Source: Chitinophagaceae bacterium (GTDB lineage: Bacteria; Bacteroidota; Bacteroidia; Chitinophagales; Chitinophagaceae). Taken from it: a stretch of DNA of 48,564 nucleotides. The stretch spans positions 1-48,564 of the forward strand of contig CANGQQ010000002.1 in the NCBI GenBank assembly GCA_947456025.1. The letters run 5' to 3'. Below are positions 3,638 to 29,407 of the stretch, piece by piece (the stretch's first letter is position 1; every line of letters starts with the position of its first letter). Under the pieces are notes generated by a model. The model ran no database searches and had not been told where the DNA came from. It saw only the letters and a program-made list of their open reading frames with translations. Both the position numbers and the translations under genes were made by a program.

Positions 3638-3906
3638 GTCTTAATTTTTTCAATGTTACCATCAAAACTATGACCAAAAAAGCGAGACTGCCTATTTTTT
3701 TCTTGAACCTATAAAGAATTGACGAAATGGCAGAAGCGAAGATTTATTGCAAGTAGAAATTGAGTAAAAGAATCGTTGCCGTGATTCCAAATATAATTCA
3801 TATATCGCTGATTTACAGTCTTTTAAATGCTTAATAACGAATGTTTTTTGGTACTGTCAGTTAAGGCTTTCTTAAAAAATAGTTATTCACACAGGGCAAA
3901 AATAAT

Positions 3907-3936
3907 TTTGAAATCTAACTGCAATTTGTAATTTAG
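3907..3936 (+). promoter_or_regulatory. Predicted promoter of intergenic small RNA 1
   Basis: TTTG (3907-3910), 18-nt spacer, TAATTTAG (3929-3936); close to TTTG-N19-TAnnTTTG. Confidence 0.4.
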
Positions 3937-3939
3937 CAA

Positions 3940-4001
3940 CAGAATTTAATGGGTTAGTAAGTACAAAGGGTTGAAAGCAATTTCAGCCCTTTTACTTTTT
4001 T
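3940..4001 (+). ncRNA. Candidate small RNA 1 (about 60 nt)
   Basis: Sits between a predicted promoter and a strong terminator; no ORF; contains ATGGGTTAGTAAGTAC (3949-3964), complementary to the segment at 28368-28383. Confidence 0.4.
3965..4001 (+). terminator. Intrinsic terminator (candidate sRNA 1)
   Basis: AAAGGGTTGAAA-GCAA-TTTCAGCCCTTT (12-bp stem with one U-G) then TACTTTTTT. Confidence 0.75.
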
Positions 4002-4156
4002 AAACCCATCGCATTTACACACGCCGCCATCAACCTGTTGTCGTTTTCAAGTTCCTGTAAATTCAAGATCCCGAAATTTCATCTACGTTTTTTTGATTAT
4101 TTTTTTCAACGTGTTCGTTCCGTTTGATTGATTTTCTTATCGATTATCTTTACCGC

Positions 4157-27986: not shown

Positions 27987-28338
27987 ATTTATTTTTTTTC
28001 AAAGGTACAGTGCTTTATCATTTGCCTCATTAGAATTTCAGTAAGGAATCCATTCCTGTGAAGCAATAACAACAATCAACTGAATCCATCTTTTCATTGA
28101 TCTTTATTGCATCACGATTCAATAAACAAGAATCATGATACATATAAAAAACAATTTGATCCGAACGTTTAAATGAAAACAACAACATCAATCAGGACAA
28201 AAAAACAGGATGATTCTGTTTTAAAATTCAACTGTTGCTTGGCCATGACAGAAAAAGATGGATGCCCTTTTCCACAAACAATAAAAAAATGTGAATAAAA
28301 TAAATTGAAAATTTTTTCTTTATAGAAATAATTTATTT

Positions 28339-28346
28339 TAATATTG
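28339..28346 (+). promoter_or_regulatory. Weak -7-like element TAATATTG for candidate sRNA 2
   Basis: One mismatch to TAnnTTTG; no convincing -33. Confidence 0.2.
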
Positions 28347-28349
28347 TGC

Positions 28350-28418
28350 AAGGAAATTTATTTCCCGGTACTTACTAACCCATCCATTCTAAAAGCTCGG
28401 TTTCTTCCGGGCTTTTTT
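28350..28418 (+). ncRNA. Candidate small RNA 2 (about 70 nt)
   Basis: GGAAATTTATTTCC hairpin, then GTACTTACTAACCCAT (28368-28383), then intrinsic terminator; no ORF. Confidence 0.35.
28391..28418 (+). terminator. Intrinsic terminator (candidate sRNA 2)
   Basis: AAAAGCTCGG-TTTCTT-CCGGGCTTTTTT. Confidence 0.75.
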
Positions 28419-28528
28419 ATTTCCCGTTTTTGAAATCAATTCTTGAATTACAACACAAGACAAATGGCTTTGTCCCGAATAGTTGATCGAATGAAATCGA
28501 AATACATTACTTTGCTAAAAAAACAGTT

Positions 28529-29407
28529 ATGCTCAAATCAATGACAGGCTTTGGAAGGATCGAAGCGACAGCCGGTGATAAAACTTTTTTAGTCGAAATC
28601 AAATCACTGAATGGAAAACAATTTGAGCTCAACTTACGACTCACTCCACTTTTGAAACCCTATGAATTTGAAATTCGGTCTATGTTATCCGATCAACTTC
28701 TGCGTGGTTCTATCGAATGCACGATTTCTTTAAAACAAAACAGTGGCAGCGGTGCTATCACAATCAACAAGGAAATGGCAAAAGCCTATTTTCAACCCTT
28801 GAAAGAAGTTGCCGATGATTTGCAGATTCAAGTGAGCGAATATGTACTAGGCGCCTTGCTTCGATTGCCGGATGTGGTAGTGCCCAATACAGACGTCCTC
28901 AGTAATGAACAATGGAAACAGTTTCAAGGTATTCTCATCAATACGATTCAGGCCATCAACACCCACCGCAACATCGAAGGAGCCGCACTAGAAAAAGACC
29001 TGATTGAACGAATCCATAATATTCTTGCTTATCAGGAAAAGATCAGCGAACTGGAGCCCTTACGTCAACACAAAATGAAAGAAGACCTCCGAAGAAAAAT
29101 GGAGGAGCAACTGGGAAAAGAAAATTACGACACCAACCGCCTGGAGCAGGAAATGATTTACTATATCGAAAAAATCGACATCAGTGAAGAGCAGGTTCGT
29201 TTGCGTAACCATTGCGACTATTTTTTGAACATTTTGAAAGAAACGGATGAAGCCAAAGGAAAGAAGTTGGGCTTTGTAATACAGGAAATTGGACGGGAAA
29301 TCAACACCACCGGTGCAAAAGCATATGATTCCGGCATCCAAAAACTGGTGGTACTGATGAAAGATGAATTGGAAAAAGCAAAAGAGCAGGTCTTAAATGT
29401 TTTGTAA
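28529..29407 (+). CDS. yicC: YicC family endoribonuclease-like protein
   Basis: MLKSMTGFGR start, FVIQEIGREINTTGAKA. Confidence 0.95.
   Translation: MLKSMTGFGRIEATAGDKTFLVEIKSLNGKQFELNLRLTPLLKPYEFEIRSMLSDQLLRGSIECTISLKQNSGSGAITINKEMAKAYFQPLKEVADDLQIQVSEYVLGALLRLPDVVVPNTDVLSNEQWKQFQGILINTIQAINTHRNIEGAALEKDLIERIHNILAYQEKISELEPLRQHKMKEDLRRKMEEQLGKENYDTNRLEQEMIYYIEKIDISEEQVRLRNHCDYFLNILKETDEAKGKKLGFVIQEIGREINTTGAKAYDSGIQKLVVLMKDELEKAKEQVLNVL

Follow-up and report, generated by a model that had tools for sequence, protein, structure and literature searches.

Two short intergenic genes, 24 kb apart and both on the + strand, probably encode a pair of autonomous trans-encoded small RNAs that pair with each other: a small RNA (RNA1) and its dedicated antagonist (RNA2). 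They lie in a window of 48,564 nucleotides, the whole stretch of Chitinophagaceae DNA that was analysed, and the features of both loci are collected in Table 1. The preliminary description had proposed a 16-nt perfect complementarity between the loci, and sequence comparison in the window bears this out: ATGGGTTAGTAAGTAC in RNA1 is the exact reverse complement of GTACTTACTAACCCAT in RNA2. The surroundings it gave for the match are also present. Each segment is located in a non-coding gap between predicted genes, a + strand terminator (a stem, 3965–3992 and 28391–28416, followed by a T run) is found directly 3' of each, locus 1 has the TTTG-N18-TAATTTAG promoter, and the resemblance extends beyond the core (AGAATTTAATGGG versus AGAATGGATGGG). 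Besides the pair, there are no further sites for the 16-mer in the window at three or fewer mismatches and no copies of the 14-nt core in the 2.37-Mb genome at one or fewer; shuffled windows contain a mean of 0.16 matches, and 0 of 100 shuffles contain two. The match by itself is weak evidence, as had been argued from the outset, an exact inverted 16-mer being only mildly unlikely in 48 kb. It is significant because it is conserved in relatives, where the complementarity spans 11–15 nt and position 16 forms a C-G pair mainly within the window's own genus. A chance match is ruled out by this conservation, and very probably we are looking at a real RNA with a partner or antagonist.

Table 1. Positions of the features of RNA1, RNA2 and their upstream regions in the window
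Feature	Position	Strand	Remarks
DnaA-box-like site TTATTCACA	3883..3891	+	upstream of RNA1 promoter
RNA1 promoter	3907..3936	+	TTTG 3907-3910, 18-nt spacer, TAATTTAG 3929-3936; kept in 30-genome alignment A1
RNA1, predicted ~60-nt small RNA gene	3940..4003	+	start inferred from -7 element; model R1
RNA1 conserved block GAATTTAATGGGTTAGTAAGTA	3942..3963	+	22 nt, after the -7 box; invariant in 30 genomes
RNA1 pairing segment	3949..3964	+	exact reverse complement of 28368-28383
RNA1 intrinsic terminator	3965..4001	+	stem 3965-3992, then T run
DnaA-box-like site TTTTCCACA	28268..28276	+	upstream of RNA2 promoter; similar sites in most relatives
Second, inverted DnaA-box-like site	28290..28298	-	TGTGAATAA on + strand; upstream of RNA2 promoter
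RNA2 -7-like promoter element TAATATTGTG	28339..28348	+	nearly invariant in alignment A2 (30 genomes)
RNA2, predicted ~70-nt small RNA gene	28349..28421	+	start inferred; model R2
RNA2 5' hairpin GGAAA..TTTCC	28352..28365	+	pairing kept in 96.6% of cells; both sides altered in two pairs
RNA2 pairing segment GTACTTACTAACCCAT	28368..28383	+	linker between the two hairpins
RNA2 intrinsic terminator	28391..28421	+	stem 28391-28416, then T run; sequence varies between genera

Among 61 relatives, blastn detects locus 1 in 34 and locus 2 in 36, which amounts to practically all members of the family. Alignments of 30 genomes for RNA1 (A1) and RNA2 (A2) served as the basis of two covariance models, R1 and R2, which detect RNA1 in 225 and RNA2 in 227 of 249 Chitinophagaceae genomes. 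In an order-wide sample, RNA2 is present in 35/35 family genomes and 0/164 others, and RNA1 in 33 of the same 35; weak R1 matches also turn up in the order's remaining families, and most of them have no core and resemble hits to a terminator. The RNA1 21-mer occurs, among the matches listed, in Chitinophaga, Sediminibacterium, Segetibacter, Flavihumibacter, Terrimonas, Niabella, Ferruginibacter, Puia and other Chitinophagaceae. Of 69 RNA1 loci, 63 are upstream of radA, and a zinc-peptidase gene is often the neighbour on the other side; RNA2 is divergent from an lpxD-like acyltransferase gene in 62 of 70. Synteny at both loci indicates that the genes are orthologous, immobile and not bound to one regulated neighbour, and suggests that RNA1 and RNA2 act in trans. 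The DNA context around both genes otherwise diverges among relatives. Loss of the 16-mer with retention of the flanking genes, the finding named in advance as speaking against the pair, was not seen; across the family, both syntenic loci have retained core, promoter and terminator. In the window, RNA2 is followed directly by a yicC-like endoribonuclease gene (28529–29407, +). Such a gene is near RNA2 in 41/70 loci and is not a constant neighbour; a functional link with RNA2 is possible only.

At least eight genomes lack both genes by the models (three in genus g7, three in g48, G068 and G076), versus 2.1 expected under independent loss when genomes are counted regardless of phylogeny. The syntenic sites were read in these genomes except G076, where neither neighbour gene was found, and neither RNA is present at the sites read. 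In G108 (genus g7), RNA1 lies upstream of radA and the RNA2 match is elsewhere; the RNA1 core is altered in G108, where position 13 is now A, and in G102, and the RNA2 genes of these two genomes were sought and not located. The clearest counter-example is locus L151 of genome G370 (2.3 Mb), with an RNA2 that has full core and promoter, and RNA1 not detected.

Both partners are predicted to be independent transcription units, each with a conserved promoter and an intrinsic terminator. Primary-sigma promoters of Bacteroidota have the consensus TTTG near -33 and TAnnTTTG near -7. The RNA1 promoter resembles this consensus; TAATTTAG differs from TAnnTTTG at one base, and a different clade has TACATTTG. 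A -7/-33 motif is described in PMC7366714. The RNA1 terminator stem covaries between genera, seven pairs being altered on both sides with pairing kept. The RNA1 15-mer ATGGGTTAGTAAGTA is identical in 135 of 161 RNA1 sequences, in some relatives with a differently placed promoter, and the GAATTT part of the gene is conserved, though most RNA2 sequences do not match it. For RNA2, alignment A2 contains no clear -33 TTTG, and the -7 region there reads TAATATTG. The order of elements is the TAATATTGTG box, the hairpin, the segment TACTTACTAACCCAT and a variable terminator; the 5' hairpin is shorter or missing in some genera. The RNA2 15-mer is identical in 126/144 RNA2 sequences. Its distance from the -7 element ranges from 11 to 24 nt across relatives while the core is kept, as expected of an element of the transcript.

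Additional RNA1-like genes were observed. Genome G089 has a second one (L159:1581-1677, -) with a different promoter (TAAATTTG) and the same ATGGGTTAGTAAGTA, without GAATTT. Two in genus g33 (L165:1494-1613 and L170:1412-1530) are located away from radA and have a new 5' arm, TACTTAC, which pairs with GTAAGTA so that the core is displayed in a hairpin loop. Another is found on a contig binned as Patescibacteria (L461:703-802; JADZEV010000003.1, labelled Candidatus Nomurabacteria). It consists of CAGAATTTAATGGGTTAGTAAGT and an AAAGGG hairpin terminator behind a sigma70-like TTGACA promoter, lies between the end of dnaK and dnaJ, and scores 46 bits with R1 (E 2e-8); an exact RNA1 21-mer is expected about 0.1 times by chance in the collection. 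Horizontal transfer, mimicry, mis-binning or chance may each account for it.

Is the pairing maintained as the sequences diverge? Among 123 genomes with both RNAs, positions 3–13 (11 bp) are fully paired in 121, G-U pairs included, and all 15 pairs are Watson-Crick in 106. Flanks, hairpins and terminators diverge while the central 11 bp stays paired. The RNA2 core has changed from C to U with retention of a G-U pair at position 4 (G014, G204), position 9 (G054/G142, G196) and position 13 (G190), and in G012 positions 14 and 15 are now U-G and G-U. In G090 and G015, RNA2 is complementary to RNA1 beyond the core as well, reaching the GAATT(T) stretch after a gap. Changes that break a pair occur in G019 (position 4, both RNAs changed), G382 (position 12) and genus g2 (position 2). 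A clean compensatory double change from one Watson-Crick pair to another was found in none of the genomes compared; candidate compensated cores in genera g2 and g34 were rejected, as the RNA1 genes there are not compensated. RNAs from the same genome form 1827 paired cells versus a mean of 1825.2 for shuffled partners, a non-significant difference (155 of 2000 shuffles reach 1827); own partners are barely better than shuffled ones because the core hardly varies. We conclude from the comparison that the pairing is strongly preserved and that covariation in trans is not proven.

The energy of the core duplex is calculated to be -23.9 kcal/mol, with a cofolding gain of -23.5 kcal/mol. In a related calculation with slightly different RNA ends, with 1000 shuffles of each RNA, the observed duplex energy was reached by 1 for RNA2 and 0 for RNA1. 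The conserved complementarity is predicted to sit in accessible segments of both partners. Over 134 RNA2 sequences, the core CUUACUAACCC has a mean unpaired probability of 0.84. GGGUUAG of RNA1 is moderately open (mean 0.65), and the UAAGU part of RNA1 often pairs locally. In some genera, the latter part forms a clear hairpin with the upstream arm (UACUUAC/GUAAGUA in g33, AUUUUA/UAAGAU in g84), suggesting a loop-to-linker contact there.

The preliminary description had offered a small RNA with its antagonist or sponge as one reading, and this is the one best supported, by conservation, synteny and kept complementarity. RNA1 would consist of a conserved, largely unstructured 5' segment, GAAUUUAAUGGGUUAGUAAGUA, followed by the terminator hairpin, and RNA2 of a 5' hairpin, an exposed linker, UACUUACUAACCCAU, and the terminator hairpin. 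Complementarity of this linker to 15–16 nt of RNA1 would let the two RNAs form a stable duplex that hides both segments. RNA1 would be a seed-type small RNA acting on mRNAs through GGGUUAG, and RNA2 a dedicated sponge of RNA1; the roles could also be the other way round. RNA1 appears to be the more sRNA-like of the two, given the conserved block at its 5' end. As judged from sequence, a duplex of two short trans-encoded RNAs is well supported, and its most likely use is antagonism. We infer transcription, duplex formation in cells, antagonism, a regulator and any mRNA target. If the interpretation is correct, nearly every member of the Chitinophagaceae, a large family of environmental bacteria, would have this regulatory RNA pair. 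The sponge would be a conserved gene of its own with a fixed partner over more than 80 genera, offering a clean natural case for the upkeep of sRNA-sRNA pairing. The open literature searched yielded neither a described small RNA for the Chitinophagaceae nor a description of the RNA1-RNA2 pair; one may exist elsewhere.

Several other explanations were weighed against this one. If the 15-mer were a DNA operator for a protein, located by chance within both transcribed regions in opposite orientation, the motif would be conserved in both orientations near two promoters, as it is, and own-pair matching would not need to exceed that of shuffled pairs clearly, which it does not. We consider an operator improbable, given the variable distance between motif and -7 element in RNA2, the retention of the motif in RNA1 genes whose promoter is differently placed, its location, in each gene, within the unpaired stretch of a unit that has both promoter and terminator, and the several C to T changes in the RNA2 core that keep G-U pairs. 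It is likewise improbable that the two are real small RNAs each shaped by selection for other partners, whether mRNAs or a third RNA, with their mutual complementarity secondary. The intact RNA2 core of G370, where RNA1 was not detected, and the conservation of GAATTT in RNA1 without a match in most RNA2 sequences are consistent with such partners. Two reverse-complementary 15-mers kept throughout the family are, however, most simply explained by direct pairing, and the window's genome offers no other copy of the 14-mer at up to one mismatch.

The invariant segment of RNA1 reads AUG GGU UAG UAA after an A/T-rich leader, raising the question whether RNA1 could be a minigene, toxic or regulatory, with RNA2 as an antisense antitoxin, similar to a type I toxin-antitoxin system. 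This is very unlikely. Genus g19 has CUG in place of the AUG, and G402 and G102 have AAG, while GGGTTAG stays, and the two-codon frame encodes no conserved peptide; a type I system was rejected as there is no conserved toxin frame, only AUG GGU UAG. We give almost no credence to inverted copies of a mobile or repetitive element, or to chance. That an exact inverted 16-mer is in itself only mildly unlikely would agree with either, but the genome holds only two copies, which are syntenic across the family and have unrelated flanks. Searches for matches in plasmids returned none, and in phages a single weak one at chance level. The earlier suggestion of two copies of a shared element in opposite orientation thus finds no support as a mobile or repeat element, since the two genes are otherwise unrelated and each holds a syntenic position.

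Turning from these alternatives to the control of the small RNA and its antagonist, we observe DnaA-box-like sites upstream of both genes. The strict form TTATNCACA, on either strand, is found upstream of RNA2 in 106 of 130 cases (expected fraction 0.006) and upstream of RNA1 in 66 of 149 (expected fraction 0.007); a relaxed form is present in 129/130 RNA2 and 105/149 RNA1 upstream regions. An origin of replication, which such boxes brought to mind, was ruled out by GC skew; in G023, the skew switches between 505 and 688 kb, with RNA1 at 496 kb and RNA2 at 966 kb. The presence of these sites at both promoters suggests a possible common regulator of the pair, either DnaA or a different protein recognising this site; this is a lead rather than a result. 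A more elaborate proposal links an RNA switch, present throughout the family, to the replication cycle. Acting through the conserved boxes upstream of both promoters, DnaA would set the ratio of two mutually antisense small RNAs, the free partner would control cell-cycle or other genes, and the look-alike in Patescibacteria would be a transferred or mimicking copy. We hold this to be unlikely as a whole. With such sites in front of both genes, a link to replication can be tested directly.

CopA/CopT and RNAI/RNAII are cis-encoded antisense pairs, transcribed from opposite strands of one locus. RNA1 and RNA2 are similar to them in their perfect complementarity and in the use of loop or linker segments as contacts. 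In contrast to these pairs, the genes of RNA1 and RNA2 are 24 kb apart and complementary over only 11–16 nt; a cis-encoded antisense pair is ruled out, as both genes are on the + strand at that distance. Within the same phylum, GibS of Bacteroides thetaiotaomicron (PMC7366714) and Rfp18 of Flavobacterium psychrophilum (PMC9723704) are, in the available text of these papers, intergenic small RNAs from transcriptome maps described as acting on mRNAs. They resemble RNA1 and RNA2 in being intergenic, whereas a reciprocal small RNA pair was not found for either in the same text. No Rfam family matches the window at the gathering threshold, and the best sub-threshold models are DapZ (25.1 of 56 bits) and SorY (19.7 of 111 bits). 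The enterobacterial sponges, or anti-sRNAs, reportedly include SroC against GcvB and 3'ETS-leuZ against RyhB. By analogy, one of our short RNAs would pair in trans with the seed of the other and titrate it, so that RNA1 and RNA2 would work like a small RNA with its sponge, a likeness that rests on sequence and carries no claim to class membership. Known sponges are often fragments of an mRNA or of a tRNA precursor, or are borne by prophages; RNA1 and RNA2, unlike those, are separate intergenic genes with their own predicted promoters and terminators, kept throughout the family.
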